Assembly: GCA_902787825.1 (NCBI GenBank)
Contig: CADAHS010000029.1
Span: 1-46,033, forward strand
Source of the DNA: an uncultured Ruminococcus sp.
Lineage (GTDB): Bacteria > Bacillota > Clostridia > Oscillospirales > Ruminococcaceae
DNA length: 46,033 nt
Reading direction: 5' to 3'
Made by a program: the position numbers and the translations under genes. A model generated the notes under the pieces. The model searched no databases. It saw only the letters and a list, made by a program, of their open reading frames with translations, and had not been told where the DNA came from. Positions 5,675 through 46,033 of the stretch are shown here, piece after piece; position 1 is the stretch's first letter, and every line of letters begins with the position of its first letter.

Positions 5675-5862
5675 GCCGGGGGAAACCCTTTTGGAGAGAG
5701 GGTAAGTAACCGTGGTAACGATTACTCTATCCCGTCCAGACCCCCTTCCTAAACCTCTTAATGATTTTTACTAATCGGGCATAAAAGCCCGATTAGTAAA
5801 AATAACTGAAAGTTCAGAAAAGAAAGTTTGAGAGAAAATCTTTATCCAAGAGAATATCCTCG
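5675..5862 (+). repeat. Family A variable-hairpin repeat, copy A1
   Basis: Occupies most of the 309-bp spacer between cheW and mtnA. It opens with the conserved GGGGGAAACCCTTTTGGAGA, then a longer hairpin insert containing AGTAACCGTGGTAACGATTACT, then CCCCCTTCCTAAACCTCTT. The variable stem is ATTTTTACTAATCGGGC (5764-5780), loop ATAAAA, and its exact complement at 5787-5803, 17 bp with no mismatch. The conserved tail AACTGAAAGTTCAG and AGAATATCCTC follow. The remaining bases to 5947 are AT-rich with no gene. Confidence 0.85.
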
Positions 5863-5947
5863 GTTGTTCAGCAAAAATACTATAATAAAATAAAAATCGA
5901 ACTTATAAATGCACAGGGGTATGGCGACCTGTTGTTTGCTCCGACTG

Positions 5948-6394
5948 CTATCGTCTGTCACGCACGAGTTTTGCTGGGTCCAGCAGGGAGATACGTTTTT
6001 TATTTGACGAAATAAAAAACTTGACTGTGCCGCCTGAGATGGGCGATCTTGCGATCATCTGCGGTGTGATATCCTCCACATCAGATACCATATCCACAAT
6101 GATCCCGGCCTGCAATCCCTCGACCTCAACGACGATAACACAGCTCCTGTCGGAATACTTTATATCCGCAAAGCCCATTCTCTTTCGGAAATCTATCACC
6201 GGCAGGGCTTTGCCTCGATGGTTCATCAGACCCTTTATGTATGCAGGGAGTTTGGGGATAACCGTCAGCTCCGGTATCTCTATGATATCTGTGACATCGG
6301 TTATTAAAAAGGCATAAAATTTGTTGTCAGAGAAAAATGAAAGTATCTTTCCGCCGTTTTGCTCAAACTCGCTATCTCTTTCTTCCATTGTCAT
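5948..6394 (-). CDS. cheW: Chemotaxis coupling protein CheW
   Basis: A 148-residue single CheW-like (SH3-like double barrel) domain that bridges chemoreceptors to the CheA kinase at the inner membrane face. The family core GLMNHRGKALPVIDFRKRMG is near residues 60-80, with an IVVEVEG-AGIIVDMVSDV strand pair after it. The start is supported by AAAGGAG upstream. It begins 23 bp after the cheA stop codon, so the two are certainly one operon. There is no receptor, cheY, cheB or flagellar gene in the window, so the rest of the pathway must be encoded elsewhere. Confidence 0.93.
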   Translation of the reverse strand: MTMEERDSEFEQNGGKILSFFSDNKFYAFLITDVTDIIEIPELTVIPKLPAYIKGLMNHRGKALPVIDFRKRMGFADIKYSDRSCVIVVEVEGLQAGIIVDMVSDVEDITPQMIARSPISGGTVKFFISSNKKRISLLDPAKLVRDRR

Positions 6395-6417
6395 TCAAAC
6401 CTCTCCTTTCCCCGCTG

Positions 6418-8517
6418 TTACGCTTTTTGCTTGACATACGGTCTGAGTATCTCCTTGACATCAAGACCGATAGTTATGGTTCCGTCGCCAAGTATCGAGC
6501 AGCCGCTCATTCCCGCTTCCTTCAGCGGAAAGTCCGAAAGCAGCGGTGAGAACGGTTTTACAACTATCTGCTGGTCGGAAATAATGCTGTCGGCAAACAG
6601 CACCGCAGAGGCCTCGCCCTCTTTGCAGTAGAGCATTATGCCCTTGTCCACATCATGAACATCGCTGGGTATGCCAAAATGCTTGTTGAGCCTTATCAGC
6701 GGCAGGCACATATCACGCAGCATGATGAACTCGTTGCCGTCAGGGTCAAGGATATAGTTATCAGCCTTGCAGGAAAACGCTTCTCTTACCGAGCTTATCG
6801 GCACAGAAAGACTGCTTTGTCCGACCTTGACGCTAAGCACGTCGATGATTGACAGCGACAGCGGTATGCGGATAGTGAACACCGAACCGACACCGAACTC
6901 GGAATCTACGATAAGCTTTCCGCCGACCTTTTCGATATTCTTTTTAACAACGTCCATTCCCACGCCACGCCCGGAATACTCGGTGATCTGCTCGTTTGTG
7001 GAAAAGCCTGCTGCGACGGTAAAGTTAAAAACTTCCTTATCGGTATATTCATTCTCGGGCTTGGTCAGAAGCCCGTTCTTTTTTGCCTTTGCAAGTATCT
7101 TTGCCCTGTCCATTCCCGCACCGTTGTCACGGCAGGAAATGACCACCTCTCCCGAATCATAGCCTGCGGAAAGAGTAACTGTCGGCGGCTCGGTCTTGCC
7201 TGCTGCGGCTCTTTCCTCGGGGGATTCGATACCGTGGTCAACAGCGTTTCGGGTTATGTGCATAAGCGGGTCATTGAGTATATCCACTATACTCTTATCG
7301 ACCTCTGTTTCCTCCCCGACAAACTCCAGTGTTACACCCTTTCCGAGCTTCTGGTTCATATCTCTTATAACTCGGTTCATCTTCTGGAAAGCCGTAGAAA
7401 CGGGCACCATTCGTATGCTCATTACCGAATCCTGAAGCTCGTCGGTGAGCTTTTTCAGTTCACGGGCGGACTTGTTGAAACGGTCAAGGTCAACGCTCAG
7501 CCCTTTGAGATCGGGGCTTGAGGTAACTGCACCCTGAGTTATGACAAGCTCTGCAACAAGGTCAAGCAGCTGGTCGAGTTTTTCGAGCTTGACAGAGATA
7601 ATGCTTTGCTCATGTTTTTCGCCGGACTTCTTCGGCGGCTGCTTCGGAGCCTGTTGGGGCTGCTGAGCCTGCACCTGAGCCTTAGCCTCAGCCACTGCCT
7701 TATCAGCCTGTGCAGGTGTTGGGGCAGGCTGTTGAGCAGGTTTGGGCGGCTGAGCATTTTTGTCAGGCTTATGCAGCTGCACTGCCTTTTCGACATTTAT
7801 ACCGTCCTCTAAAAATTCGAGCACTTTGTTCGGGTCATCGGTAATGAGCTTGATTATCAGACCGTGAGCTTTTATCTCGTCATCGGCGTTATCGTCGTCA
7901 AGATCGACGGGCACGGTCGAGCAGACCTCAGCGATCTGTCCCAGTCCTCGAAGCAGCACAAAGCCTCTTGCAGACGGCATTGCACAGGTCTCCTGATATG
8001 TGACCTTATAGGTGAGGATACTTTCGTCCTCGTCGTCGGGGAACAGGTGGGAGAGATCCTCCTCGCCTGAAGCCTGTCCCGATCCGGACTGCTGCGGTGC
8101 GGCTTCGCCCTTCATATTCGCAGCAAACGCATGGATCTTCCCTTCCAGCTCGGTAAAGTCGCTGAGTGGGATATCGTCGTCCTGAATATTTTCAAGCTCG
8201 TTTTTAAGGTTGTCGGAGCTTGCAAACAGCAGCTCGTAAAGCCCCGGTTTATCGTACTTTACGTCCGGGTCATCACGGATTATATAAAACAGATCCTCCA
8301 CCGCATGGGCAAGCGTGGACATATTCTGCAAGCCCATCATCGCAGCAGAGCCTTTTATGGTATGCATTGTACGGAATATCTCGTTGATATCCTCTGTACC
8401 GATAGTTTCCTCCTGCTCGGTACGCATAAGGATATCGTCAAGCTTTTCAAGCAGATCGCCCGTCTCAAAGACGAACATATCCAGCATTCCTTCCATTCCC
8501 GCTTCAAATTTTGGCAT
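6418..8517 (-). CDS. cheA: Chemotaxis histidine kinase CheA
   Basis: A 699-residue CheA with the usual five-domain plan. P1 (HPt): IFRTMHTIKGSAAMMG with phospho-accepting His52. P2-like response-regulator docking domain about residues 160-255. A Gln/Pro/Ala-rich linker about 258-303. P3 dimerisation (LDLVAELVITQGAV). P4 ATPase: N box HITRNAVDHGIE near 415, G1 DNGAGMD near 464, G2 GRGVGMDVV near 519. P5 CheW-like regulatory domain from about 562 to the end. It autophosphorylates from ATP and passes phosphate to CheY/CheB. It is the third gene of the run ydbS-ydbT-cheA-cheW, 24 bp after ydbT; AGGG sits 7 bases before the ATG. Confidence 0.96.
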   Translation of the reverse strand: MPKFEAGMEGMLDMFVFETGDLLEKLDDILMRTEQEETIGTEDINEIFRTMHTIKGSAAMMGLQNMSTLAHAVEDLFYIIRDDPDVKYDKPGLYELLFASSDNLKNELENIQDDDIPLSDFTELEGKIHAFAANMKGEAAPQQSGSGQASGEEDLSHLFPDDEDESILTYKVTYQETCAMPSARGFVLLRGLGQIAEVCSTVPVDLDDDNADDEIKAHGLIIKLITDDPNKVLEFLEDGINVEKAVQLHKPDKNAQPPKPAQQPAPTPAQADKAVAEAKAQVQAQQPQQAPKQPPKKSGEKHEQSIISVKLEKLDQLLDLVAELVITQGAVTSSPDLKGLSVDLDRFNKSARELKKLTDELQDSVMSIRMVPVSTAFQKMNRVIRDMNQKLGKGVTLEFVGEETEVDKSIVDILNDPLMHITRNAVDHGIESPEERAAAGKTEPPTVTLSAGYDSGEVVISCRDNGAGMDRAKILAKAKKNGLLTKPENEYTDKEVFNFTVAAGFSTNEQITEYSGRGVGMDVVKKNIEKVGGKLIVDSEFGVGSVFTIRIPLSLSIIDVLSVKVGQSSLSVPISSVREAFSCKADNYILDPDGNEFIMLRDMCLPLIRLNKHFGIPSDVHDVDKGIMLYCKEGEASAVLFADSIISDQQIVVKPFSPLLSDFPLKEAGMSGCSILGDGTITIGLDVKEILRPYVKQKA

Positions 8518-8541
8518 ATATATCCCTACGCTCCTTTTCGA

Positions 8542-10517: not shown

Positions 10518-10599
10518 ACAAAAAACTCCTGAAACGAATTTTCAAGGCTTGCAGGGCATATACTTTCATAGCCATATCGTCACAAAAAGGAGCAAAGCC

Positions 10600-12745: not shown

Positions 12746-12768
12746 AGCTGCACTTTCCTTATCGGGTA

Positions 12769-13694: not shown

Positions 13695-13710
13695 TATTTA
13701 GCTACTGTAT

Positions 13711-13886: not shown

Positions 13887-14073
13887 CGAACGTCAAGCCA
13901 TAATGGCTTGAAGAAAAAGAGTTCTACACAGGGTAAGGGGCAGCCCTCTCGTGCAGGGCATGCCCCTCTTTCAAAACAGTCCACAGGACTGTTTTGAAAT
14001 TCACCCTGTGCTGAGCGTTTGACGTTCGGGGTGTTTACGAGAAAAAGGTGGACGAAAAAACCTGTTATTATAC
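13887..14073 (+). repeat. Family B multi-hairpin repeat, copy B1
   Basis: In the 537-bp spacer between the PNP promoter and jag. Ten-base ends CGAACGTCAA (13887-13896) and TTGACGTTCG (14019-14028) pair exactly. Inside are TCAAGCCA/TGGCTTGA, an 8-bp helix CACAGGGT/ACCCTGTG, a GGGGC/GCCCC hairpin, and the shared palindrome TTTCAAAACAGTCC-aca-GGACTGTTTTGAAA (13969-13999). The shared tail ACGAGAAAAAGGTGGACG and AAAAAACCTG follow to 14073. The second copy is at 25246. The part 13740-13886 is AT-rich with one GGGGGC/GCCCCC hairpin (13829-13848) and no gene. Confidence 0.8.
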
Positions 14074-16628: not shown

Positions 16629-16671
16629 TCTCGTCCTCCATTTTACTTTTCTTATCATTTGTGCGGGATAG

Positions 16672-16830
16672 CTGGGGAAAACCCTTTTGGAGAAGGGTTC
16701 TCCCCCAGACCCCTTTCCTAAACCTCTTTAGTATTTTTCTGTATCAGGTGATTAACACCTGATACAGAAAAATATTAGAAAGTTCAGAAAAAAGAATTTG
16801 AGAAAAATCTTTTCCAAGAGAATATCCTCA
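16672..16830 (+). repeat. Family A variable-hairpin repeat, copy A2
   Basis: Between yidD and yidC. First hairpin CTGGGGAAAACCCTT with AAGGGTTCTCCCCCAG; then CCTTTCCTAAACCTCTT; variable stem TATTTTTCTGTATCAGGTG (16732-16750), loop ATTAA, exact 19-base complement 16756-16774; then GAAAGTTCAG and tail CCAAGAGAATATCCTC. Copies A1 and A3 share the blocks but not the stem sequence. Confidence 0.87.
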
Positions 16831-16881
16831 ATTATACTGCACAGATGATATGCAAACTACAATAAAACACAATAATGTGTA

Positions 16882-17142: not shown

Positions 17143-17513
17143 TGATCCTTTTTAGGCATATTGCCGGTTCTCTTTTCAAAAGGCTTGTTCATTTCTTTGA
17201 TAAGCCTTTGTCCGATAAAACTGAGCACATCTTTGCTCGTTTTCTCACCGATATTATTTCTTCCCACAAACACTATATCGTATCCTATCGGGAAATCCTG
17301 TTCGCTAAGACGGCAGGCTGCTCTTATGATCCGCTTGATCCTGTTTCTTGTCACGGCATTGCCAAGTTTTTTGCCTGCGGTGATGCCAAGCCTGTTGCAG
17401 GGCATCTTATTAGGAAAGAAATACACGCACAGCGTATCGCTGCACACTCGCCTTCCCTTTTTGTAACAACGCAAAAATGCACTGTTATCCTTCAGGATAG
17501 TTGTAAACAGCAT
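17139..17513 (-). CDS. rnpA: Ribonuclease P protein component
   Basis: A 124-residue RnpA, the protein cofactor of RNase P that helps bind pre-tRNA 5' leaders. The signature KKLGNAVTRNRIKRIIRAA is the conserved RNR basic helix; FLRCYKKGRRVCSD is the N-terminal element. Length is normal. The sequence before the ATG (CAGAAGAT) gives a poor ribosome site, and a purine-rich heptamer array on this strand ends about 20 bases upstream and may help. It lies 241 bp after rpmH, a wider gap than usual. Confidence 0.95.
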   Translation of the reverse strand: MLFTTILKDNSAFLRCYKKGRRVCSDTLCVYFFPNKMPCNRLGITAGKKLGNAVTRNRIKRIIRAACRLSEQDFPIGYDIVFVGRNNIGEKTSKDVLSFIGQRLIKEMNKPFEKRTGNMPKKDQ

Positions 17514-17520
17514 ATCTTCT

Positions 17521-17562
17521 GATCTCTGATCTCTCTTACTTCTTACCTCTTACCTCTTACTT
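17521..17562 (-). repeat. Heptamer array upstream of rnpA
   Basis: On the plus strand: GATCTCT twice, then CTTACTT, CTTACCT, CTTACCT, CTTACTT, a continuous 7-bp period over 42 bp. On the rnpA coding strand it reads as purine-rich AAGTAAG/AGGTAAG units. The rest of the 17514-17754 gap holds a CGACCTT/AAGGTCG inverted repeat (17579-17617), a CCGCCGTATATGGCGG hairpin, and a weak open frame (17543-17718) without a ribosome site. Confidence 0.8.
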
Positions 17563-17754
17563 CTAAAAAACTAAAAACGACCTTATACCCTTCAATTATC
17601 TGAATGGTAAAGGTCGGTCGATAACGGGGCGGCAGCTTTTTTAAACAAAGCTCACCTGTTCTTACCCCGATTTCTTCGGCTTCTCTCTTTACGCCGAAAA
17701 CAGCAGTTGCGTCCTCCGCCATATACGGCGGACGACATAGCCGCCGGAAAAAGA

Positions 17755-17889
17755 TCAATAGCTGAGTCTTGCTCTGCCCTTAGCTCTTCTTCTTGCAAGC
17801 ACCTTTCTGCCGTTAGCAGTTGCCATTCTCTTTCTGAAACCGTGAACCTTCTGTCTGTGAAGCTTCTTAGGCTGGTATGTTCTTAACAT
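17755..17889 (-). CDS. rpmH: 50S ribosomal protein L34
   Basis: A 44-residue protein beginning [18 protein letters not shown] and ending [12 protein letters not shown], the unmistakable L34 sequence: very basic, with the [20 protein letters not shown] core. It is part of the large ribosomal subunit. The ribosome site GGAGG is 11 bases before the ATG. It heads the left-going rpmH-rnpA-yidD-yidC-jag run and has its own strong promoter 120 bp upstream with a structured leader. Confidence 0.97.
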
Positions 17890-17938
17890 TTCAGTTCATC
17901 CTCCTTCCGTTGACCTGTCCAAGCAATATTTACACAAA

Positions 17939-17979
17939 TATCACTTCATCAGCCTTTTTATGCGGACTGACAAGTGATA
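17939..17979 (-). promoter_or_regulatory. Hairpin in the rpmH leader
   Basis: TATCACTT (17939-17946) pairs exactly with AAGTGATA (17972-17979), with an additional CAG/CTG pair set inside, in the leader between the rpmH promoter and the ribosome site. It could be an autoregulatory site or simple leader structure; the sequence alone does not decide. Confidence 0.45.
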
Positions 17980-18007
17980 AATCTTGACATAGCCCTTGTA
18001 ATTTTAC

Positions 18008-18037
18008 ATTATAGCTTATTTGATAGTCATTTGTCAA
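18008..18037 (-). promoter_or_regulatory. Promoter of the rpmH operon
   Basis: TTGACA (plus-strand TGTCAA, 18032-18037), 18 bp spacer, TATAAT (plus-strand ATTATA, 18008-18013). Both hexamers are perfect consensus, fitting a ribosomal gene. Confidence 0.92.
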
Positions 18038-18405
18038 CCCCTTTTTTTAACTTTTTTATCAAACTGCACAGCTTTTTAAGGATAAATTGTACAGGTTTTC
18101 TTAAAATTTTTGTGTACTCAACATAATCAAATTATTATAACTACAACATATAGTTAAAAAATACCGAATAATCAGCCTATTTTGTATATATTACAGCTGT
18201 AAGACCATTGTTGAAAAAAATACTATTAATTATATATATATGCTTGAAATTTTATGCGGTTTGTGATATACTTAATTAGTATTGAGCAGTATGCCATTTT
18301 GTTAATATTTGCATATTTTCAATGGCATTTTACTATAACATCAGACATATCACTTTACGGATTTATCACATAAAGGATAAGATATATTTGGAGGAGAAAT
18401 AAATT
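18038..18405. other. Origin region upstream of dnaA
   Basis: AT-rich intergenic DNA between rpmH and dnaA, including an alternating A/T tract near 18225-18240 that could be an unwinding element. There is one exact TTTTCAACA nonamer on the minus strand (18209-18217). No TTATCCACA or single-mismatch DnaA box was found here. The position between rpmH and dnaA, and the switch of gene direction, mark it as part of oriC by analogy with other Firmicutes. Confidence 0.65.
18244..18272 (+). promoter_or_regulatory. dnaA promoter
   Basis: TTGAAA (18244-18249), 17 bp spacer, TATACT (18267-18272) preceded by TGA (extended -10). It leaves a leader of about 125 nt before the dnaA ATG. Confidence 0.65.
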
Positions 18406-19758
18406 ATGGATTCATTCAATGACGTATTTCTGGAGGTTCTGAAATACTGCCACGATTATAAGACTGTCAGCGAGCCGGGGTATAACAGGTGGATAAAGAT
18501 ACTTGAACCTTACAAGTTTGAGAACAATACCGCCTATCTGCTTGCAGACTCTGAATTTACAAAGACTACGACCGAAACTAACTACGGTCACATCATAAAA
18601 GAAGCTTTTGAGCACGTCATGGGCTTTGAGGTAGATGTCAGGATACTTGTAAAGACCAAGGAAGAAACGGAAAATGAAGATGTCAACGTTACTCCTGCAA
18701 AGTATTCGGACAACCTTACAAATCTCCTGACCTTTGACAACTTTGTGCAGGGTGAATCAAACAAGCTTGCGTTTGCATTTGCAAAAACAGTTGCAAACAG
18801 GTACAACAACAATTCCCAGCAGTCTGATTATAACACGATGCTTTTCAATCCGCTTATCATCTACGGTGATTCGGGACTTGGAAAAACTCACCTTATGAAA
18901 GCAATAGAATATGATGTCAAGAAGAATAATCCCGATCTCAGGATAGTATATACCACGGGCGAGTCATTTATCAACGAGCTGGTAAAAGCTCTTGAAACTA
19001 AAGATACCGTAAATTTCCACGATAAATACAGAAATGCTGACTATCTGCTGGTAGACGATATCCAGACTATCGCAGGCAAGGAAAGAATGCAGGAAGAATT
19101 TTTTCACACCTTCAATGAGCTTTATAATGCAGGCAAACAGATAGTTCTGACCTCTGATATACACCCCTCAAAGATATCAAAGCTTCAGGACAGGATACAG
19201 TCAAGACTTTCTAACGGAATGCAGGTCGATATCACACCGCCTGATCTTGAAACGAGAATGGCTATCATCAAGAGCAAGGCTGAAAGACTCGATCTTCATC
19301 TTTCCGAAAGCGTTATAAGAATAATCGCTGAAAAGATCAAGATAAACGTAAGACAGATCGAAGGCACTATCAAAAAGATAAAGGCTCTGACTATCTATAC
19401 CAACGAGCAGCCTACTATCTCGATGGCTCAGAGAGTCATCAAGGAGATAATGATAGAAAACCATCCTGCTGAAATAACCGTTGACAGGATAATCAACGAT
19501 GTTGCAGACGCATTTGATGTAACATCTGAGGATATCCTCTCAAAGAACAGACAGGCTAAGATCTCGCTTGCAAGAAAAATAACTATTTATGTCATGAAAA
19601 ACGTCAAGGGTATGACATTTACCCAGATAGGTGATGCTCTTAATAAAAATCATTCGACTATGACTATACACTATAATGAGATAGACCAGCTGCTCAATAC
19701 CAATAAAGCACTAAAGGATAATGTCGATGATATTATAAAAAATCTCAAAAACAACTGA
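18406..19758 (+). CDS. dnaA: Chromosomal replication initiator DnaA
   Basis: A 450-residue initiator ATPase. Domain I is at 1-90, a short acidic linker (EETENEDVN) forms domain II, and the AAA+ core has Walker A GDSGLGKTH at about 153-161, Walker B LLVDDIQTI near 213 and sensor regions after it. The C-terminal DNA-binding domain is recognisable (ISLARKITIYVMKNVKGMTF, then TQIGDAL), but the recognition helix reads NKNHSTM where most DnaA proteins have GRDHTTV. That change falls on base-contacting positions and fits the lack of canonical boxes nearby. It has an excellent ribosome site (GGAGGAG, eight bases before the ATG). First gene of the right-going run. Confidence 0.98.
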   Translation: MDSFNDVFLEVLKYCHDYKTVSEPGYNRWIKILEPYKFENNTAYLLADSEFTKTTTETNYGHIIKEAFEHVMGFEVDVRILVKTKEETENEDVNVTPAKYSDNLTNLLTFDNFVQGESNKLAFAFAKTVANRYNNNSQQSDYNTMLFNPLIIYGDSGLGKTHLMKAIEYDVKKNNPDLRIVYTTGESFINELVKALETKDTVNFHDKYRNADYLLVDDIQTIAGKERMQEEFFHTFNELYNAGKQIVLTSDIHPSKISKLQDRIQSRLSNGMQVDITPPDLETRMAIIKSKAERLDLHLSESVIRIIAEKIKINVRQIEGTIKKIKALTIYTNEQPTISMAQRVIKEIMIENHPAEITVDRIINDVADAFDVTSEDILSKNRQAKISLARKITIYVMKNVKGMTFTQIGDALNKNHSTMTIHYNEIDQLLNTNKALKDNVDDIIKNLKNN

Positions 19759-20276
19759 CATTTCAACAAGTGAATTAAAACGGACAATTAAAACTCTTTA
19801 AAATGCTTTTCAACAATTTTTGATAAAACGATCGGCTTTGATCTGCGCACATTACGCACAGGCTTCAACATTTTTAATAATTCTGATAATGATGAAAAGG
19901 TTAAAAACAAACATCTGATCGTGATTTTTTCAATATTTGTTTTAACTTTCAACCAACTGTTTTTCAACCTTGCAATATCAAGATCAACTTTCAAAATAAT
20001 CAACTTTTTATTCAATATGACCTGCCTAAAACTATACCTGCTTAAAAGCAGTCATAAAAGAAAAAAACGTGATAATTAACATTTTAAACGCTACTGATAC
20101 TAATACTGAAAAAATATAAGTTATGTTGGTTAACAACAGCACAACTCACCTTAACAGACAGACAAGCCGTTGTTGAAAAGATCTGCTGAAATATTTTTTT
20201 GATGAACAGATAAGATCAGACAAAATAAAAATATAAAAACTTATAAACTTATAATCAGAAGGGCTGTGATCTCTTA
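19759..20276. other. dnaA-dnaN origin spacer with TTTTCAACA-type boxes
   Basis: A 518-bp AT-rich gap without a gene. Exact TTTTCAACA occurs at 19807-19815 (plus) and 20171-20179 (minus). Close variants lie at 19760 (ATTTCAACA), 19862 (GCTTCAACA), 19946 (CTTTCAACC) and 19961 (TTTTCAACC). In many Firmicutes this spacer holds the second DnaA-box cluster of a bipartite origin. The TTATAAACTTATAATC stretch just before dnaN is AT-only but not clearly a promoter. Confidence 0.6.
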
Positions 20277-21386
20277 ATGAAATTTACCTGTGAGAAAAAA
20301 GTACTTATAGACGCTGTGAGCAACGTTTCAAAAGCTATCTCCGAAAAAGCTCCTTTTCCTGCTCTTTCGGGAATGAGAATGTATCTTGACAAAAACTCTC
20401 TTGAGCTTACGGGATACAATATGGAAATAGGCATCAAAACAAATGTTATGGTGGAAAGCAGCGATTCCGGTCAGTGCATAATAGATGCGAACCTGTTTTC
20501 AAATATGCTGAGAAAAATGCCGGAGGATATAATAAGCATTGAAATATCCTCTAACTATCAGGTGACTATCTCAAGCGGCGTGACCACATTTAATCTCGTG
20601 GCTTCAAACGCAGATGAGTATCCTGATCTTCCCCTTGTTAATTCAGATGAGGTAATAAGCATCTCTCAGCCTGTGCTCAAAAATATGATCGAACAGTCCG
20701 TGTTTGCCGTTGCAACAACGGATATGAAACCGATCCTGAAGGGTGAGCTGTTTGAGATAGAAAACGGCACTCTCGTTCTTGCTGCGATAGATGGTTACAG
20801 ACTTGCGGTAAGATATGAGCCGATAAAGTATGAGGGAATGAAAAAGTTCGTTGTTCCTGCGGTGACTCTCTCAAAGGTCATCGAGCTGCTTGGTGATAAG
20901 GAGGATGAGGTCGCTCAGCTTTGTCCCACACTTAAACATATTATCTTCAAAATAAACGGATATATGGTTTATTCAAGACTTCTTGAGGGTGAGTTCCACC
21001 CGTATAAGTCTGCGATCCCGACAGAGAGCAAAACTGAGGTCATAGTAGACAGAAAACAGCTCATAGCTACCCTTGAAAGAACTATGCTCATCATTAATGA
21101 CAGAGCACCTTCACCGGTAAAATGCTATTTTGAAAATGACAGTGTAAAGATAAACTGCAAAACATCTGTCGGAAAGATATCTGACGAGATAAGCGCTGCT
21201 ATCACAGGTCCTGTCATTGAGATAGGATTTAAGTGCAAGTACCTGCTTGACCCGCTGAAGGTCATCGACGAGGACAGGGTGAAATTGCAGATGAACGGAA
21301 GCTTGCTGCCTATGAAGATAGTTTCCTGCAGCGACGAGAATAAGTATACATACCTCGTTTTGCCTGTAAGACTTCCAAAGGACTGA
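20277..21386 (+). CDS. dnaN: DNA polymerase III beta sliding clamp
   Basis: A 369-residue beta clamp that forms the dimeric ring tethering the replicative polymerase. It has the three-domain length of the family, starts [20 protein letters not shown], contains FPALSGMRM and LVNSDEV, and ends in [11 protein letters not shown], the conserved C-terminal tail lining the partner-binding pocket. The ribosome site is weak: AAGGG lies 13 bases before the ATG, and no better start exists. The next gene starts four bases after its stop. Confidence 0.97.
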
Positions 21387-21390
21387 TCTG

Positions 21391-21612
21391 ATGAAAACAG
21401 TTGAGATTAAAATAAAAACTGAATTTATAAAGCTTGATTCTCTGCTGAAATTTGCCGGTGTCGTCGAAACAGGCGGGATCGGAAAAGAAATAATTGCCGA
21501 GAAAAGAATAAAGGTCAACGGTGAGATCTGTACCATGAGAGGAAAAAAGATAAGAAATGGTGACAGAGTCCAGATAGAAGAGATAGATACCGAGATTTTA
21601 GTTGTAAACTGA
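21391..21612 (+). CDS. yaaA: S4-domain RNA-binding protein YaaA
   Basis: A 73-residue protein made of a single S4 RNA-binding module: [18 protein letters not shown], then [13 protein letters not shown] and GDRVQIEEI. It is the small S4 protein found between dnaN and recF in Firmicutes (YaaA/RlbA of Bacillus), probably acting on ribosomal RNA or ribosome assembly. It lies four bases after dnaN and its stop overlaps the recF ATG, so it is translated in the replication operon. Confidence 0.92.
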
Positions 21613-22757
21613 TGTATATAACAAGATTGTGCGTTGACGGTTTCAAAAACCTGAAAAATATAGATATATCTCCTCACGAGAGCCTTAATATCTTCTGCGG
21701 CAGAAATGCGCAGGGAAAAACTAATCTTATCGAGGCTATCTGGCTATGCAGCGGTGTGAGATCTTTTCGCAGCACCAAGGATAAAGGCATGATAGATATC
21801 GACAAGGACTTTATGCAGATCGAACTCAGCTTCAAAAACAGCTTTCGTGAGCAGACTGTTCGTTACAGCATGAGCAGAAAGGATATAAAGGAAAAAAATA
21901 TCTTTCTCAACGGAGTAAAGGTAAAAACGCCATCAAAGATATTCGGACAGCTCGACTGTGTGGTGTTCACACCGGAGGATCTTGAAATATCAAAAGGCTC
22001 GCCGGAAAACAGAAGGCAGTTTTTAGATCTTTGCGTAAGTCAGATTAAAAACAATTATGCAGGAGTCTGCGCAAAGTATGAAAGGATCATTGAGCACAGA
22101 AACGCTTTGCTTAAAAGCATTTCATTCGGAAAAAGCTCAAAGGACGAGCTTGAAGCGTGGGATATGCAGCTTGCACAGTTAGGCTCATATATCTCTCTTT
22201 TGAGATATAGCTATACCAAAAAGCTCAATGCCTTCGCAGCAAAGCTCTATAACGAGATATCACAGGGCAAGGAAAAGCTGGAGATAGGTTACTATTCAAC
22301 AGTATTTCCAAAGCTTGAAGGAAAAAGGGATTATGCAGGCGAGATGGCGCAGGAGTATCTTGAGGTACTGAAAAAAAATACAGACGAAGATATCCGCTGC
22401 GGATTTACGATGAAAGGTATTCACCGTGACGATATGACAGCAAGGATAAATGGTCTGACCTGCCGTGACTATGCATCACAGGGTCAGCACAGATCTGTGG
22501 CACTGGTGATGAAGCTTGCGCAGGCGTACATTCTTTCTCAGGAAACTGACGACCCACCGTGTATCCTGCTTGATGACGTGCTCAGCGAGCTTGATGTCAA
22601 CAGACAGAAATTTGTGATCTCAAAGATAGACGGTATGCAGGTGTTCATAACCTGCTGCGATAAGAATATTCCCTTTGAGAAAAATCAGCACGGGCGGCTT
22701 TTCAATATCGAGGGAGGAAGAATAAAGACCCAAAGGCGAAAGGAAAAGAAAGACTGA
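21612..22757 (+). CDS. recF: DNA replication and repair protein RecF
   Basis: A 381-residue SMC-like ATPase that loads RecA at gaps with RecO and RecR. Walker A is GRNAQGKTNLIEA at about residues 30-42; the signature region contains YASQGQHRSVALVMKLAQA; Walker B with the D-loop is CILLDDVLSELD near 317. The start [17 protein letters not shown] is typical. Both ends overlap the neighbours by the TGATG arrangement (yaaA before, remB after), giving coupled translation. Confidence 0.97.
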   Translation: MYITRLCVDGFKNLKNIDISPHESLNIFCGRNAQGKTNLIEAIWLCSGVRSFRSTKDKGMIDIDKDFMQIELSFKNSFREQTVRYSMSRKDIKEKNIFLNGVKVKTPSKIFGQLDCVVFTPEDLEISKGSPENRRQFLDLCVSQIKNNYAGVCAKYERIIEHRNALLKSISFGKSSKDELEAWDMQLAQLGSYISLLRYSYTKKLNAFAAKLYNEISQGKEKLEIGYYSTVFPKLEGKRDYAGEMAQEYLEVLKKNTDEDIRCGFTMKGIHRDDMTARINGLTCRDYASQGQHRSVALVMKLAQAYILSQETDDPPCILLDDVLSELDVNRQKFVISKIDGMQVFITCCDKNIPFEKNQHGRLFNIEGGRIKTQRRKEKKD

Positions 22758-23017
22758 TGTATCTTCATCTTGGCAACGACTATATCGTTAATGAAAAGGA
22801 TATCATAGGGATCTTTGATATAGAGAATTCATCGGTGTCACAGATCACAAAACAGTTTCTCAATAACGCATCGAAAAATGCAAGAGTTGTGAACTGTACA
22901 TATGAAATGCCAAAGAGCTTTGTTGTCTGCCTTGATAAAGATCTGACGGAAACAGTCTATATTTCTCAGCTGGCGTGTTCAACACTGCTTAAAAGACACA
23001 GGAGGTACTCCCAATGA
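22757..23017 (+). CDS. remB: Extracellular matrix regulator RemB
   Basis: An 86-residue RemB/YaaB-type (DUF370) protein: MYLHLGNDYIVNEKDIIGIF followed by NARVVNCTYEMPKSFVV and ISQLACSTLLKR. Bacillus RemB, downstream of recF, helps activate biofilm-matrix genes; the related RemA is a DNA-binding protein. What it controls here is unknown. Its ATG overlaps the recF stop. Repeat A3 begins 13 bases after its stop and separates it from gyrB. Confidence 0.92.
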   Translation: MYLHLGNDYIVNEKDIIGIFDIENSSVSQITKQFLNNASKNARVVNCTYEMPKSFVVCLDKDLTETVYISQLACSTLLKRHRRYSQ

Positions 23018-23030
23018 GTAATTGGGGAAA

Positions 23031-25237
<2,207 letters not shown>

Positions 25238-25245
25238 GAATATTT

Positions 25246-25483
25246 AGTCAAACCCTGAAGGGTTTGAGGAAAAAAAGAGAAGGCTTTTCATAAGGGAACG
25301 CCCTCTCTTTCAGGGCGTTCCCTCTTTCAAAACAGTCCACCGGACTGTTTTGAAATTCACCCTTTGCGGAGCGCCTGACGTAAAGAGATTTCGCTGTCTG
25401 CGGACAGCGACGAGGGCGCTGCCCTCGACTCGCCACCTTTTTTTACGAGAAAAAGGTGGACGAAAAAACCTGATATTATGGTT
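25246..25483 (+). repeat. Family B multi-hairpin repeat, copy B2
   Basis: Fills the gyrB to ycxB-like spacer. In order: TCAAACCC-tgaa-GGGTTTGA (25248-25267); GGGAACGCCCT / AGGGCGTTCCC (25294-25322); the palindrome shared with B1, TTTCAAAACAGTCC / GGACTGTTTTGAAA (25325-25355); CGCTGTC-tgcg-GACAGCG (25392-25409); CGAGGGC-gct-GCCCTCG (25411-25427); CCACCTTTTT / AAAAAGGTGG (25433-25459); then the shared GGACGAAAAAACCTG tail. The two GC-rich hairpins at 25392-25427 are absent from B1. Confidence 0.85.
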
Positions 25484-28907: not shown

Positions 28908-29690
28908 ATGACCACTATCAAAGATATTTATAACTACATAGATCAGATCGCACCCTATTGCTTGCAGGAGAGCTATGACAACAGCGGACTGTGTGTCGGC
29001 AACGGCGGTACGCAGGTAAAAAAAGCTCTTATCGCACTTGATGTCACAAAGGATATTATCCTTGAGGCGAGGCAGTGCGGTGCCGACACTATCATCACGC
29101 ATCACCCTGTTATTTTCAAGGCGCTGAGATCTGTCGATACTGATACGGTCGTTGGAATGCTGCTGAAATACGGTATAGCATCGGTCAGCGCTCACACGAA
29201 TTTTGACAGCACGCTGATGAACGATATTCTGTGCAAACAGCTTGGTATCGTCCCCGATGAGCCTTTGTGCGTGGAAAACGGCGCTGAAATGGGCTGCGTG
29301 TGCACCCTTGAAAAAGAAATGACCGCAGACGAGCTTGCAGCAATGATAAAGCAAAGGCTTGGCAACGTGGTCGTTCGCTACAACGATGTTTCAAAAACGC
29401 AGGACTATGCCGGCAGGAGCATTTCAAAGGTCGCAGTCTGCTCCGGCAGCGGCGGAAGCTTCTGGAGAAACGCACTCTCAAAGGGCTGCGATGCGCTTAT
29501 CACGGGAGATGTCAAGCACGATGTTTTCATTGATGCGAACAATTCGGGACTGTGCGTTTTCGATGCGGGACATTTCCATACCGAGAATATTTTCTGCGGA
29601 TATATGAAAAATGTGCTTTCCGAGCAGTTCAGAGATGTGGAATTTTCAGTTGCACAAAACAACTTTGATGTAGTTTCTTACAGGGTGTGA
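28908..29690 (+). CDS. Nif3-like dinuclear metal centre protein
   Basis: A 260-residue Nif3/GTP cyclohydrolase I type 2 family protein. Metal-binding motifs are ITHHPVIFK (two His) and SAHTNFD in the N-terminal half, and DAGHFHTE in the C-terminal half. It is the short form without the central insertion seen in many Firmicutes. Family members are toroidal hexamers of uncertain function. AAAGGAG six bases before the ATG fixes the start. Usually it follows a tRNA methyltransferase (TrmK); that gene is not here. Confidence 0.9.
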   Translation: MTTIKDIYNYIDQIAPYCLQESYDNSGLCVGNGGTQVKKALIALDVTKDIILEARQCGADTIITHHPVIFKALRSVDTDTVVGMLLKYGIASVSAHTNFDSTLMNDILCKQLGIVPDEPLCVENGAEMGCVCTLEKEMTADELAAMIKQRLGNVVVRYNDVSKTQDYAGRSISKVAVCSGSGGSFWRNALSKGCDALITGDVKHDVFIDANNSGLCVFDAGHFHTENIFCGYMKNVLSEQFRDVEFSVAQNNFDVVSYRV

Positions 29691-29697
29691 TGTCTTA

Positions 29698-29884
29698 TTG
29701 GGGGAAACCCTTTTGGAGAGAGGGTAAGTAACACGTGGTAACGGTTACTCTATCCCGTCCAAGCCCCCTTCCTAAACCTTTTATTATTTTTTCGCCATCG
29801 GGGAAAGGATTCCCCGATAACGAAAAAAGCAGTAAGAGTCTAAAAAGAGACTGAGAAATAGCACTCCCAGAAGAGTATCCTCAA
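29698..29884 (+). repeat. Family A variable-hairpin repeat, copy A4
   Basis: Between the nif3-like gene and rqcH. It opens GGGGGAAACCCTTTTGGAGA with the AGTAACACGTGGTAACGGTTACT insert also present in A1, then CCCCCTTCCTAAACC. Variable stem TTTTTTCGCCATCGGGGAA (29787-29805), loop AGGA, complement 29810-29828 with one 2-base mismatch (CC opposite AA). The tail has AAGAGTATCCTC. No promoter for rqcH is evident in the remaining bases to 29968. Confidence 0.85.
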
Positions 29885-29968
29885 TAAAGCATCATAATCA
29901 TATAAGAAAACCACATAATAATTATTATTTGCAATCCCAAACCCAATGCATTTAAAGGAGATCGCATA

Positions 29969-31726: not shown

Positions 31727-31732
31727 ACTGCC

Positions 31733-31918
31733 GGGGAAACACTTTTGGAGTATTATCGGGGGAACTCTTTTAGGAGAAGAGTTCCCCCGTACCCCCTCAG
31801 AAACCTCTTAATGAATTTCAGCCATATAGGCACAAGACCCATATGGCTGAAATTGACTGAAAGTTTCGGGAGAGTAAAGGAGAATTCTTTCCTGAGAGAA
31901 TACCCATGATTATACTCC
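31733..31918 (+). repeat. Family A variable-hairpin repeat, copy A5
   Basis: Downstream of rqcH. A broken first start (CCGGGGAAACACTTTTGGAG) is followed at once by a full one. First hairpin CGGGGGAACTCTT (31757-31769) pairs 13 of 13 with AAGAGTTCCCCCG (31777-31789). Variable stem AATTTCAGCCATATAGG (31814-31830), loop CACAAGA, complement 31838-31854 with one mismatch. An outer GAAAC/GTTTC pair flanks it. The rest of the 440-bp spacer (31919-32099) is AT-rich with no gene seen. Confidence 0.85.
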
Positions 31919-32099
31919 AAGAGAACTCCCACAACAGTCACAGAGGCGATCTCGGCGGTTCATCTTATCGGAAAACAGTGCTGCGGCACAGAGCATAATT
32001 TTTTGCAAACTGCCCGTTGTTGAAAACTTTTATAAAAAATGCTTCAAAGCGGCTTTTCGATTTGTTCAATTAGATATATAGGGCAACAGGCAAAATCTA

Positions 32100-34790: not shown

Positions 34791-34808
34791 TTTAACGGTC
34801 AGATTTAT

Positions 34809-34839
34809 CTTACTGCATCTTGCTTCTTGCTTCTTGAGG
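34809..34839 (+). repeat. Short heptamer array upstream of yabP
   Basis: CTTGCTT twice in tandem (34819-34832), flanked by CTTACTGCAT before and CTTGAGG after. Same family as the arrays at 3037 and 17521. Confidence 0.65.
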
Positions 34840-37700: not shown

Positions 37701-37725
37701 CAGTTATACTGAATCAGAAATTACA

Positions 37726-37976
37726 GTAGCAAATTCGGTGAGAAATCGGGCTGGAACTCTTTGAAGAAGAGTAAAAACGGCGTTGCCGTTTTTGAGAGTA
37801 ACCATGTAATGGTTACTCTGTTTCCCCCGAGGATATTCGTTGAATATCCTCGCAAGCGACCGTAAGGTCGCTTATCCCCCTTTCAGAAACCTTTTAATGA
37901 TTTTTGTAGAATAGGGCTTTCAAGCCCTATTCTACAAAAATAACTGAGAGATACCCGAGAGAGTTCAGGAAGATTA
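37726..37976 (+). repeat. Family A variable-hairpin repeat, copy A6, with four extra hairpins
   Basis: Directly before the GH130 gene. It opens GTAGCAAATTCGGTGAGA and GGAACTCTT, as in A7. Then come four tandem perfect hairpins: AAAAACGGC/GCCGTTTTT (37773-37793), AGAGTAACCAT/ATGGTTACTCT (37795-37819), CGAGGATATTC/GAATATCCTCG (37828-37852) and AAGCGACC/GGTCGCTT (37854-37873). Next CCCCCTTTCAGAAACC, then the variable stem at 37900-37919 pairing 20 of 20 with 37922-37941. The tail GTTCAGGAAG contains the GH130 ribosome site. Confidence 0.88.
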
Positions 37977-37980
37977 GATT

Positions 37981-38979
37981 ATGAAAGTGAAGATCATTAA
38001 TGGACAAAGCCTTCCCAATATCCCCTGGCAGGACAAGCCGCAGGGCTGTGCTGACGTAGTGTGGAGATATTCTCATAATCCGATAATAAAACGTGATGCT
38101 GTGAGATGTGCAAATTCGATCTTCAACTCGGCAGTAGTGCCTTTCGGCAAAGGCTTTGCGGGAGTTTTCAGGATAGACGACAAGCGCCGTGCGATGCAGC
38201 TTCACGCAGGCTTTTCCGACGACGGGATAAACTGGCGCATCAACGAAGAAAGAATACGATTTGTCCAGCAGGATAGTTCGAGTGAGCAGGTCAATCAATG
38301 GCTTTACGGCTACGATCCGAGAGTCTGCTTCATAGAGGACCGTTACTGGATAACCTGGTGCAACGCTTTTGAGGGGCACCCCACTATCGGCGTGGGCTAT
38401 ACATTTGATTTCAAGACCTTCTATCAGTGTGAAAATGCCTTTCTGCCTTTCAACCGCAACGGTGTGCTTTTCCCAAGAAAAATAAACGGAAAATACATTA
38501 TGTTTTCACGCCCGTCCGATGACGGACATACACCGTTTGGCGATATGTTTATCTCGCAGTCGCCGGATATGAAGTACTGGGGCGAGCACAGACACGTTAT
38601 GTCACCGCATATGCCGTGGGAGTCTACCAAGATCGGCGCAGGTCCCATACCTATCGAAACAAGTGAGGGCTGGCTGTGCTTCTACCACGGCGTACTGCAA
38701 TCGTGCAACGGCTTTGTTTACAGCTTTTCTGCCTGCATTACAGATCTTAACGAGCCGTGGAAGGTCAGATACAGATGCTCGGAGTATCTCGTGAACCCCC
38801 GGGAATCTTATGAGTGCATCGGAGATGTCCCCAACGTGACCTTCCCTTGCGCTGCGCTGTGCGATGCTGATACCGGCAGACTCGCTATCTATTACGGCTG
38901 TGCAGACACCGTCGTGGGGCTTGCGTTTACAACAGTTGATGACGTGGTGGAGTATGTCAAGGCAAATTCATCAGTCTAA
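37981..38979 (+). CDS. GH130 mannooligosaccharide phosphorylase-like enzyme
   Basis: A 332-residue five-bladed beta-propeller of glycoside hydrolase family 130. Marks include [36 protein letters not shown] with the proposed catalytic Asp of the DPR motif, and [20 protein letters not shown]. The length fits subgroup 2, beta-1,4-mannooligosaccharide phosphorylases known from Ruminococcus albus, rather than the about 390-residue mannosylglucose phosphorylases; the substrate assignment is inference. It phosphorolyses mannosides to mannose-1-phosphate in the cytoplasm. There is no signal peptide. GGAAG eight bases before the ATG comes from repeat A6. Its stop overlaps the converging DUF4363 gene. 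Confidence 0.88.
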
Positions 38980-40241: not shown

Positions 40242-40297
40242 TAATCTGTGCAAATATCTTTTATCAGTAGTTTTGATTTTTGATGGAGGAAGAGAGA

Positions 40298-42256: not shown

Positions 42257-42270
42257 GACTAAACATACTA

Positions 42271-42306
42271 AAAGAGGACCGTTCAAATGAACAGTCCTCT
42301 TTTTTG
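42271..42306. terminator. Terminator between the zinc-ribbon gene and xylB
   Basis: AAAGAGGAC / GTCCTCTTT with an inner GTTCA/TGAAC pair and TTTTTT on the plus strand. It is placed between converging genes. Confidence 0.92.
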
Positions 42307-42318
42307 TTGTATCAGGTA

Positions 42319-43839: not shown

Positions 43840-43854
43840 CTTCAACGCCCCCCT

Positions 43855-44040
43855 TTAGCCGTTTTTGTCCTCTTTTTCAAGGATAAAATATGTATCGCAG
43901 TTTTCTGTTCTCAGCTCGGCTATCCTCCAGCCAAGATCAAGAAGCTCGTTGAGGTGCTCGACCTGCTTGAACCTGTCAGTTTCCGGAGGTGCCGCATCGC
44001 CTTTTTCGCTGCATTTTGTTATGTAGAATTTCTTTTGCAT
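43855..44040 (-). CDS. Small hypothetical protein, DUF4177-like
   Basis: A 61-residue protein with a strong ribosome site (AAAGGAGG eight bases before the ATG) and its own promoter, so it is probably real. The C-terminal half, HLNELLDLGWRIAELRTENCDTYFILEKE, has the helix-turn-strand pattern with GW seen in DUF4177 proteins; this is a loose resemblance. Function unknown. It forms an operon with xylB. Confidence 0.7.
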   Translation of the reverse strand: MQKKFYITKCSEKGDAAPPETDRFKQVEHLNELLDLGWRIAELRTENCDTYFILEKEDKNG

Positions 44041-44071
44041 TATAGTTTCCTCCTTTCATTGCCATAGATAT

Positions 44072-44100
44072 ATTATACAATATTTTTTATCCGATTGCAA
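44072..44100 (-). promoter_or_regulatory. Promoter of the small gene-xylB operon
   Basis: Minus strand TTGCAA (44095-44100), 17 bp spacer, TATAAT (plus-strand ATTATA, 44072-44077). It is divergent from the cls promoter 70 bp away. No xyl-type operator palindrome was recognised. Confidence 0.82.
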
Positions 44101-44170
44101 CAGCTTTTGTTGAATAATACAGTCTTTTTGTGCCGAAACTGTAATTGACGGCTCAAGGCTCAATTTTGCC

Positions 44171-44199
44171 TTGCAAAAGGTTGATATTAGTGCTATAAT
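44171..44199 (+). promoter_or_regulatory. cls promoter
   Basis: TTGCAA (44171-44176), 17 bp spacer, TATAAT (44194-44199) preceded by TGC (extended -10). It gives an unusually long leader of about 125 nt before the cls start. Confidence 0.85.
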
Positions 44200-44332
44200 T
44201 TAGAATGCAGGAGTAATTGTTTTCAGACTGTCAATTATGGGGGACGCTTTTATAACGCTTGATGAGAGTTCGGAAGAATTTCAGTGAAAAGAGCTTTCTC
44301 AGAGCGTACCGATCAAAAAAGGGGGGAGAAAA

Positions 44333-45916
44333 TTGCAGACCATACACAATGCGGTCAAGACCGAGCAGCGGCCGAAGAAAAAGCCAAAGAAACTTATCCG
44401 CATAGCATTTTCAAAGAAAACGACCATCATTTTTCTTTTGCTGATACAGTTCATATTTATCCTGCTGACGTTTACAACGCTCAGCGAGATGTCTGCCTAC
44501 ATCCGCATTGCCTTCTCGTGGCTTGCAATATTCCTCGGCTTTGTGATAATCAACACCAACGAGAACCCTGCCTATAAGCTTGCGTGGATAGTTCCGCTTA
44601 TTGCAGTGCCGGTGTTCACCTCGGTGCTGTATCTGATACTCAACAACCAGTATTCTTCACGCAGGCTGAAGACCAAGTATGCCAAAAAGTGTGAGGAGAC
44701 CAAGAAGTTTTTAAAGACCGAACGGACCCTTATGAACGAGCTTGAAAAAAATGACCGTGATCTTGAAAAAATGGTTAGGTATATCGACCATTTCGGCGGC
44801 TATCCGGCGTACAGAAATTCCTCAGCGGTGTATCTGCCGTTTGGTGAGGTTAAGTTTGCGGTCATGCTTGACGAGCTGAGAAAAGCAAAAAAATTCATCT
44901 TTATGGAGTATTTCATCATCGACGACGGAAAGATGTGGCAGGCTGTTGTGGATATCCTGCTTGAAAAGGTCGCTCAGGGTGTCGAGGTAAGGCTCATCTA
45001 TGACGGAATGGGTTCTCAGTTCACCCTGCCGTTCCGCTACAAGCAGAAAATGGCAGAAAAGGGTATAAAAGCGCTTGTTTTCAATCCGTTCAGACCATTC
45101 ATCACCTCGGTGCAGAACAATCGTGACCACAGAAAGATACTTGTCGTTGACGGAAATGTCGGGATCACCGGCGGTATAAACATCGCAGACGAATATATCA
45201 ACCAGAAAAACCGTTTCGGACATTGGAAGGACAATGCTGTAATGGTAAGGGGTGAGGCGGTCTGGAATTTCACGATGATGTTTATTCAGATGTGGGATGT
45301 TATCTCGGGCGAACGCACACGCTGCGAGCTTTATCGTCCTGACGAAGCCGAGTTCCCGCAGACTGACGGTATCATTATCCCATACGGCGACTCTCCGCTT
45401 GACGATGAGAACGTCGGAGAGCTTGTCTATATGGATATAATCAACAACGCAAACGACTATATCTACATCACTACGCCATATCTTATACCCGACAATGAGA
45501 TGATAACCGCACTGGGTTACGCTGCAAAGAGCGGTGTAGATGTGCGCATAGTCACTCCGAGGATCCCCGACAAGTGGTATGTTCACTGTATCACCAAATC
45601 CTTCTATAAGGACCTTATGGACCTCGGCGTAAGAATTTATGAGTACCAGCCCGGTTTTATCCACGCAAAGACATTTGTTTCAGATGATGATACAGCCGTT
45701 GTCGGTACTATAAATCTTGATTACAGAAGCCTGTATCTGCACTTTGAGTGTGCAACATATCTCCACGGCTCAAAGTGTATCATGGATATTAAAGAGGATA
45801 TGCTGGATATGCTTGAAAATAGCTGCGAGGAGATAGCTTATGACGATATCGAGTCACGCTCATTGTTCAGTAAGCTTACCTCCGCAGTCCTTAAACCCTT
45901 TGCACCACTGCTGTAA
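44333..45916 (+). CDS. cls: Cardiolipin synthase
   Basis: A 527-residue phospholipase-D-type cardiolipin synthase that joins two phosphatidylglycerols at the membrane. A basic N-terminus is followed by two membrane helices (about 30-55 and 60-80) and a third hydrophobic stretch (about 85-105), the usual PLDc_N region. Two HKD motifs are complete: DHRKILVVDGNVGITGG near 263 and IHAKTFVSDDDTAVVGTINLD near 442. The start is TTG at 44333, six bases after GGGGGG. A frame in another phase (44284) is a shadow. Confidence 0.94.
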   Translation: MQTIHNAVKTEQRPKKKPKKLIRIAFSKKTTIIFLLLIQFIFILLTFTTLSEMSAYIRIAFSWLAIFLGFVIINTNENPAYKLAWIVPLIAVPVFTSVLYLILNNQYSSRRLKTKYAKKCEETKKFLKTERTLMNELEKNDRDLEKMVRYIDHFGGYPAYRNSSAVYLPFGEVKFAVMLDELRKAKKFIFMEYFIIDDGKMWQAVVDILLEKVAQGVEVRLIYDGMGSQFTLPFRYKQKMAEKGIKALVFNPFRPFITSVQNNRDHRKILVVDGNVGITGGINIADEYINQKNRFGHWKDNAVMVRGEAVWNFTMMFIQMWDVISGERTRCELYRPDEAEFPQTDGIIIPYGDSPLDDENVGELVYMDIINNANDYIYITTPYLIPDNEMITALGYAAKSGVDVRIVTPRIPDKWYVHCITKSFYKDLMDLGVRIYEYQPGFIHAKTFVSDDDTAVVGTINLDYRSLYLHFECATYLHGSKCIMDIKEDMLDMLENSCEEIAYDDIESRSLFSKLTSAVLKPFAPLL

Positions 45917-45924
45917 ATCAGTAT

Positions 45925-46033
45925 TTAGCGTAGCATATTCGGTGAGTAATCGGGCTGGAACTCTTTGAAAAGAGTTCCCCCCGAGCCCCCCTCAGAAACT
46001 TTTTAATGATTTTTGGAATTTGGGCATTAAGCC
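45925..46033 (+). repeat. Family A variable-hairpin repeat, copy A7, cut by the window edge
   Basis: Follows cls. It shares GTAGCAWATTCGGTGAG and AATCGGGCTGGAACTCTT with A6; first hairpin GGAACTCTT-tgaa-AAGAGTTCC; then CCCCCCTCAGAAAC, TTTTTAATGATTTTT, and the beginning of a variable stem GGAATTTGGGC with loop ATTAA and the first three paired bases GCC before the sequence ends. Confidence 0.82.

Follow-up and report, generated by a model that had tools for sequence, protein, structure and literature searches.

How can a hairpin stay paired when its sequence differs from one copy of a repeat to the next? The question is raised by contig CADAHS010000029.1 of assembly GCA_902787825.1, from an uncultured Ruminococcus sp., whose 46,033 nucleotides (nt) were analyzed as one stretch, here called the window; the genome it belongs to is labeled G000. 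A repeat finder returned a single family, D1, with seven members in the window (at 5741, 16710, 23060, 29764, 31791, 37877, and 45986), and a first-pass annotation, made from the sequence alone, had located all seven correctly. Read on the plus strand, a complete copy consists of a hairpin (H1), a short conserved block, a long variable hairpin (H2), another short block, and a tail. The first-pass annotation took the pairing of H2 to reflect either selection for the hairpin or a copying process that renews both arms. Paired changes, loop reversals, and hairpin swaps between copies fit copying better, while selection alone fits less well. We consider it fairly likely that D1 is a genus-specific family of miniature inverted-repeat transposable elements (MITEs) in which H2 is hypervariable yet remains paired through template switching and domain exchange.

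Covariation of the H2 hairpin

Base-pair covariation is the usual proof of selection on an RNA fold, and the first-pass annotation had made its proposal depend on finding it. In an alignment of 70 copies, 93.5% of the H2 stem consisted of standard pairs, compared with 65.6% after shuffling, and the covariation score was 0.662, against 0.147 (standard deviation, 0.011) for shuffled data, with none of 500 shuffles scoring as high. Sliding the 3' partner by 1 to 3 columns lowered the score to between 0.07 and 0.13. Double changes were present in 17 of the 18 H2 pairs, and G-U or U-G occupied 6 of 1,255 H2 cells, with 82 other nonpairs. The number of further pair types (44, versus 42.7 for shuffled data; 175 of 500 shuffles) was the sole one of five measures without a difference. 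By eye, H2 starts with ATTTTT and finishes with AAAAAT in most aligned copies.

Paired changes, reversed loops, and swapped hairpins in closely related copies

Compensatory selection is expected to make double changes rare in recently separated copies and to reach them mostly via G-U. In the H2 hairpin lists some hairpins were entered twice, once per strand. Of 143 hairpins, 130 were kept (13 were judged wrong-strand or spurious); 121 of the 130 entered an all-pairs analysis, and 108 entered a minimum spanning tree. Along tree edges with at most 5% divergence in the frame, the conserved sequence on both sides of H2 (25 edges, 445 bp), there were 17 paired versus 3 one-sided changes. In the closest ten edges, paired changes amounted to 0.028 per bp and changes in the frame to 0.012 per site. 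Of the 17 paired changes, 13 were transversional, with no G-U path. All pairs separated by less than 3% (n = 35) yielded 17 paired and 7 one-sided changes. Within the single genome G032, four edges lay below 3%; H2 was unchanged on three of them and differed by six paired changes and one single change on the fourth.

Loops were found reversed on identical arms, as TTTTAT/ATAAAA (L162 and L166 versus L113 and L171) and as TTCA/TGAA (L093 versus L156); no loop reversal was seen in G032. Whole elements were paired where the comparison covered 180 nt or more and the difference outside H2 did not exceed 6%; of the 42 pairs, 25 had unchanged arms, and the other 17 showed 54 paired and 21 one-sided changes in total. 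By local alignment, the largest H2 differences between elements 95 to 97% alike elsewhere were those of L277/L292, L338 versus L339, L341, and L343, L254/L256, L139/L178, and L002/L254. L277 and L292, from one G032 contig, match at 124 of 130 positions to the right of H2, compared with 27 of 38 aligned letters plus 5 gapped letters within it. For L338 and L339, from the isolate FC2018, the match is 122 of 129 on the right and 110 of 120 on the left, and 24 of 34 aligned letters plus 13 gapped letters in H2; L338 versus L341, from the same genome, is also a swap case. The H2 type of L292 is found in other G032 copies and in G004, and that of L338 recurs in G006 (L223), which suggests exchange between copies. 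Rank correlations for mosaic structure were 0.10 between left and right frame and 0.10 to 0.12 between frame and H2.

Switching of a nascent strand from arm to arm is known as quasipalindrome or template-switch mutation. Because close copies carry paired changes, reversed loops, and swapped H2 domains, DNA copying is favored over stepwise RNA compensation, and it is probably template switching and exchange that keep H2 paired, not compensatory selection acting again and again. The elements are noncoding, mostly about 230 to 450 bp when complete, and closed by a tail forming the other inverted-repeat end; we propose that they may spread by transposition and settle between genes, never between divergent genes in our sample. 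During replication, the nascent strand would switch template at the near-perfect inverted repeat, writing a mutation of one arm into the other in a single event and sometimes flipping the loop. Copies would also trade the whole H2 domain, with recombination in the conserved frame to its left and right as the probable route. Pairing could thus persist without selection mending each lost pair, and there may be additional selection on the hairpin, perhaps in the form of a minus-strand RNA. It is decidedly unlikely, in our estimate, that renewal is linked to the element itself, for example, through fold-back DNA synthesis or an exchange of the domain whenever a mobilizer moves the element; were this the case, each member would bear a changing, always-paired tag, and the family would represent a diversity-generating mobile element of a new kind.

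Family size and distribution

A tight pattern search of the whole genome, allowing up to 3 mismatches, found 20 sites (reversed control, 0), and a looser pattern found 86 on both strands versus 25 for its control, one hairpin being able to match on both strands. The covariance-model search that the first-pass annotation had proposed for this genome and its relatives was carried out with a model built from the 70 copies; at most 65 candidates per genome were scored and the filters were strict, so that counts are lower bounds. It returned at least 59 copies in G000, at least 62 in FC2018 (G008), at least 58 in G009, and at least 64 in G016. Under the same scoring, 20 of the 29 genus genomes had matches, as against none of 32 genomes from 32 other genera. 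A bare 21-base pattern gave, among the matches listed, rumen Ruminococcus genomes as well as Bacteroidota and other records. The genomes are mostly metagenome assemblies; FC2018 is an isolate. Many G000 contigs (e.g., C7, C16, C37, C59, and C60) break off within a copy or close to one, which makes a larger real copy number probable; the repeats may be an obstacle to assembly.

Architecture and the seven window copies

H1 has a G-rich arm followed by a C-rich arm, with CTTTTNNAGAAG or similar in the loop region. The block between H1 and H2 is of the CCTAAACCTYTTAATGA or CAGAAACCTTTTAATGA type, and the block after H2 is of the AACTGARAGTTC type. In some copies, additional perfect hairpins lie close to H1. 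By eye, the closely similar elements L339 and L343 of FC2018 differ in these modules, which indicates that modules are also gained or lost. In the window, the outer limits of copies 1 to 6 were set by eye:

Copy 1, 5657 to 5883, plus strand: H1 with an extra hairpin module; H2 arms 5764-5780/5787-5803 (17/17); 3' tail.
Copy 2, 16660 to 16844, plus strand: H2 arms 16732-16750/16756-16774 (19/19); flanks TGTGC.../...CTGCACA.
Copy 3, 23007 to 23190, plus strand: between recF-side genes and gyrB; H2 arms 23083-23099/23107-23123 (17/17).
Copy 4, 29689 to 29895, plus strand: H2 arms 29787-29805/29810-29828 (17/19; two C·A mismatches).
Copy 5, 31727 to 31930, plus strand: H2 arms 31814-31827/31841-31854; a 14-bp core with the upper part broken.
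Copy 6, 37711 to 37985, plus strand: four perfect hairpin modules beside H1; H2 arms 37900-37918/37923-37941 (19/19); 3' tail shortened by the next gene.
Copy 7, 45916 to 46033, plus strand: ends at the contig end inside H2; 5' arm 46009-46025.

These coordinates agree with the stem lengths given by the first-pass annotation at 5764, 16732, 23083, and 29787; its 16/17 stem at 31814 is a 14-bp core that is broken above, and its 20/20 stem at 37900 is 19/19. The short blocks it described as shared do exist, but they are divided among two or more subfamilies, including a CCTAAACC type and a CAGAAACC type, and are exact in some copies only: by eye, 2 of the 6 complete window copies have AGAATATCCTC without any change. 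The arms it called unrelated are not all so, since alleles such as CGCCAT.../...ATAACG recur among copies. The common orientation it reported applies inside the window; outside, L016 has two opposed copies, and relatives have model hits on either strand.

Inverted repeats, insertion polymorphism, and candidate mobilizers

Full-length relatives carry the terminal inverted repeats (TIRs) TAAATCAGAATTT...AAATTCTGATTTA; the ends of the window copies are degenerate, and the outermost bases of copy 1 are complementary by eye (TAGTGTGTTTGCCG.../...CAGCAAAAATACTA). A loose TIR pattern gave 35 facing pairs, 28 of which enclose a detected H2; 17 of these are 297 to 449 bp long, 7 are 226 to 235 bp, and 4 are 490 to 801 bp. 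Four of the 17 (444 to 449 bp) each consist of two copies in opposed directions. Each of 4 genomes has 26 to 69 TIR-like sites, and the reversed control has none.

Gene order in the window is conserved in six relatives, some of whose contigs cover part of it, and orthologous sites can therefore be compared. This comparison, also suggested by the first-pass annotation, found both filled and unfilled sites. The site of copy 1 was empty in all 6 relatives compared (309 nt versus 30 to 61 nt), and no copy was found in the 4 relatives compared at copy 5 (440 nt versus 162 to 213 nt) or the 4 compared at copy 6 (312 nt versus 73, 83, 608, and 609 nt). At copy 2, G016 is filled with a different H2 and G009 holds a remnant, with no further sharing; G006 has no copy there and, by eye, a TGTGCAG...CTGCACA palindrome instead. 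In the gap of copy 4, G016 has a copy in the other direction, G008 has two copies, G009 has a short remnant, and G012 has none. The site of copy 3 is filled in G000, G009, G004, and G008; G016 and G006 lack a copy there, and G012 has another insert. At this recF-gyrB site, the four filled species have four different H2 hairpins.

The family thus combines terminal inverted repeats, short noncoding elements, high copy number, and insertion polymorphism, and the window copies are positioned between called genes. Judged by these sequence features, it is a MITE-like nonautonomous mobile element; the first-pass guess of such an element is well supported by its terminal inverted repeats, its many copies, and the empty sites.

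The sister subfamily c (CCTAAAACTCTTAATG), whose ends are TAAGTGCTGTACTTATACAG and CTATATAGGTACTACCCTTA, has complementary flanks in 12 of 16 cases, compared with 3.3% of mismatched flank pairs, and TTTT follows within 40 nt downstream in 14 of 16; 14 of the 16 copies also have TA at both ends (2 of the 16 are without a detected H2). From the complementary flanks and the downstream TTTT, this subfamily seems to insert in the loops of apparent intrinsic terminators. The copies with paired flanks are L026, L028, L030, L031, L034, L038, L094, L113, L119, L120, L131, and L161; 11 of these 12 have TA at both ends, and L113 has no detected H2.

Among the 38 window genes called with our own simple gene caller, none matches a transposase family above the cutoff, as the first-pass annotation had noted in finding no transposase nearby. 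DDE_3 (IS630 type) is absent from G000 and matches in 2 of 29 genus genomes, both times below the cutoff; DDE_Tnp_1 exceeds the cutoff in none of 5 genomes. Y1_Tnp was detected in 6 of 8 genomes; the two without a match, G016 and G006, have 64 and 41 scored copies. Transposase_mut was detected in 3 of 8. The distribution of none of the four tracks the element. No facing TIR pair 0.9 to 3 kb apart, as might mark an autonomous relative, was seen by eye among the sites listed.

Genomic context

The window contains dnaA-dnaN-recF-gyrB-gyrA, and the sign of the GC skew changes between the 16- to 20-kb and 20- to 24-kb bins; on these two grounds, a replication origin probably lies around 17400 to 25300. 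Two copies lie left of dnaA and five lie right of it, all in the same direction, which rules out a replication-linked orientation if the origin is there. For gene context, 114 of 155 hairpins were kept; of these, 76 lay in gaps and two further copies lay inside called genes, the others being close to a stretch end, at a repeated locus, or without a flanking gene. The 76, which include some orthologous pairs (e.g., L142 and L152), comprise 41 between same-sense genes, 21 between converging genes, 14 between opposite-sense genes, and none between diverging genes, with sense taken relative to the reader's strand. As background, 47 of 280 gaps of at least 60 nt in the window and the relatives' loci were divergent.

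Rfam gave no match at the gathering score in the window, and subthreshold hits on the element (microRNA and others; 7 loci) were taken as generic hairpins. An FMN riboswitch above the gathering score lies near a copy in L026 (2353 to 2481, minus strand). A second intergenic repeat family, a hairpin TTTCAAAACAGTCCACAGGACTGTTTTGAAA followed by TTTACGAGAAAAAGGTGGACGAAAAAACCTG, occurs in the window at 13964 to 14071 and 25320 to 25479; G000, G009, and G012 have it 3' of gyrB, G016 and G006 do not, and in G008 the hairpin family takes its place. Short runs of a heptamer-like TCTTACY are located at 3029 to 3087, 17520 to 17564, and 34804 to 34834.

Weighing the explanations

Several observations weigh against template switching and exchange in a mobile element. 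The 17 paired changes on close edges amount to about 8 independent events, some being counted on several edges, and one paired event (L030/L031) could be two single changes. One-sided changes rise with distance, yet stay fewer than paired ones (5 versus 26 at 5 to 8%, 35 versus 146 at 8 to 12%, and 27 versus 196 at 12 to 20%). Eight of the 17 differing whole-element pairs have one-sided changes only, all with L036, L349, L352, or L354. Exchange between copies can likewise yield paired differences, the frame may be under selection and so is not a neutral clock, and metagenome assemblies, with possible chimeric joins at repeats, predominate. The TA at both ends is a candidate target-site duplication, with no matching empty allele of the same strain, and no mobilizer turned up in the searches for the four transposase families. 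The leftover mismatches are biased as well. In a set of 143 unique hairpins of 174 (65 perfect), the reader's strand has 104 A·C cells (53 contexts) versus 17 G·T cells (16 contexts) and 25 others; P is 9e-6 if contexts are independent, which they are not, and a first hairpin set gave 68 versus 8 cells. Because A·C on the plus strand is G·U on the minus strand, this is the bias that selection on a minus-strand hairpin would leave, and template switching does not predict it. In the frame beside H2, wobble pairs by eye seem to be plus-strand instead; in H1 and the modules, mismatches are too few for a wobble comparison. On account of the strand bias, a regulatory RNA keeps a share of the probability. 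It would be a minus-strand structured RNA whose H2 is maintained by compensatory selection via G-U and which spread by usefulness or mobility, and the very strong covariation and the conserved frame fit it too. We nevertheless regard it as unlikely: paired changes separate copies that hardly differ elsewhere, 13 of 17 cannot go via G-U, loops reverse, H2 is replaced wholesale in near-identical elements, and 41 of the 76 copies are plus-sense between plus-sense genes, where a minus-strand RNA would need its own promoter.

Whole-domain swaps, and alleles common to different frames, are also what would be seen if H2 diversity came purely from recombination among old alleles with no template switching. 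This is somewhat unlikely, as it leaves unexplained both the reversal of loops on the same arms and the first origin of matched single-pair changes. That folding is kept more than sequence, the strand bias of the mismatches, and the Y1_Tnp genes in 6 of 8 genomes would suit a single-strand recombination or transposition site (IS200/IS605 or attC-like), of which the folded strand is recognized by shape; the conventional inverted repeats at both ends of full-length copies, and the two copy-rich genomes in which Y1_Tnp was not found, leave it a slim chance. Slimmer still is the chance of a chromosome-organizing or terminator site, the former being another guess of the first-pass annotation. Copies are many and mostly 3' of a gene, and none of 76 lies in a divergent gap, versus 47 divergent among 280 background gaps; their presence, however, differs between species, their orientation ignores the likely origin, and by eye no T-run follows H2 on either strand, which rules out an ordinary intrinsic terminator.

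Significance and comparison with known systems

The family passes the covariation test overwhelmingly, yet its closest copies bear the marks of template switching and hairpin exchange. As matched arms can come from DNA copying and swaps, strong covariation in this family does not necessarily imply a functional RNA. The family would make it possible to measure the frequency of arm rewriting in a natural, high-copy setting; it would also caution RNA discovery pipelines and give a lead to the mobilizer behind it.

Searches for Ruminococcus repeats, bacterial MITEs or stem-loops, and variable-stem repeats returned no title on such a family, and one for elements inserting in terminator loops returned no such title either; these searches were limited and are no proof of absence in print. 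Among named bacterial MITEs are RUP, NEMIS, ERIC, Nezha, and Bcr1 (PMC3733652; general definition in PMC3049150), which, as described in the available parts of these sources, are like the present family short, noncoding, strongly folded, and flanked by terminal inverted repeats, with many intergenic copies of variable presence. What sets the present family apart is a central hairpin that varies from copy to copy without losing its pairing and is found replaced in copies otherwise nearly identical; no mobilizer was found for it. To our knowledge, RUP, NEMIS, ERIC, Nezha, and Bcr1 are without such a variable paired central hairpin.

BOX elements of Streptococcus pneumoniae are likewise modular, with optional internal folded modules; in the accessible text of PMC3049150 it is the number of boxB modules that varies, whereas here the sequence of one hairpin varies while paired. 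REP/GTAG palindromes resemble D1 in having subfamilies with alternative complementary stem residues, according to the portion of PMC3733652 at hand, which gives REPs a length of 20 to 40 bp and a tag, GTAG or CGTC; the complete D1 elements measure about 230 to 450 bp and carry inverted repeats at both ends. By length and, by eye, by sequence, D1 does not belong to the REP/BIME group.

The closest parallels to the changes in H2 come from template-switch mutation, for which the available parts of PMC8794818 and PMC8604942 report arm homogenization, instantaneous compensatory changes, and loop or spacer inversion, the last a published sign of template switching. Bacterial data cited in the part of PMC8604942 available to us show that template switching favored transversions. 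That literature, so far as these parts go, concerns rRNA, microRNA, and yeast genes, unlike the mobile repeat family here, and describes compensatory change with loop inversion as extremely rare in rRNA (PMC8794818 and PMC8604942). Set beside these systems, we judge D1 to be a new MITE family, unusual for a hypervariable hairpin that renews itself.

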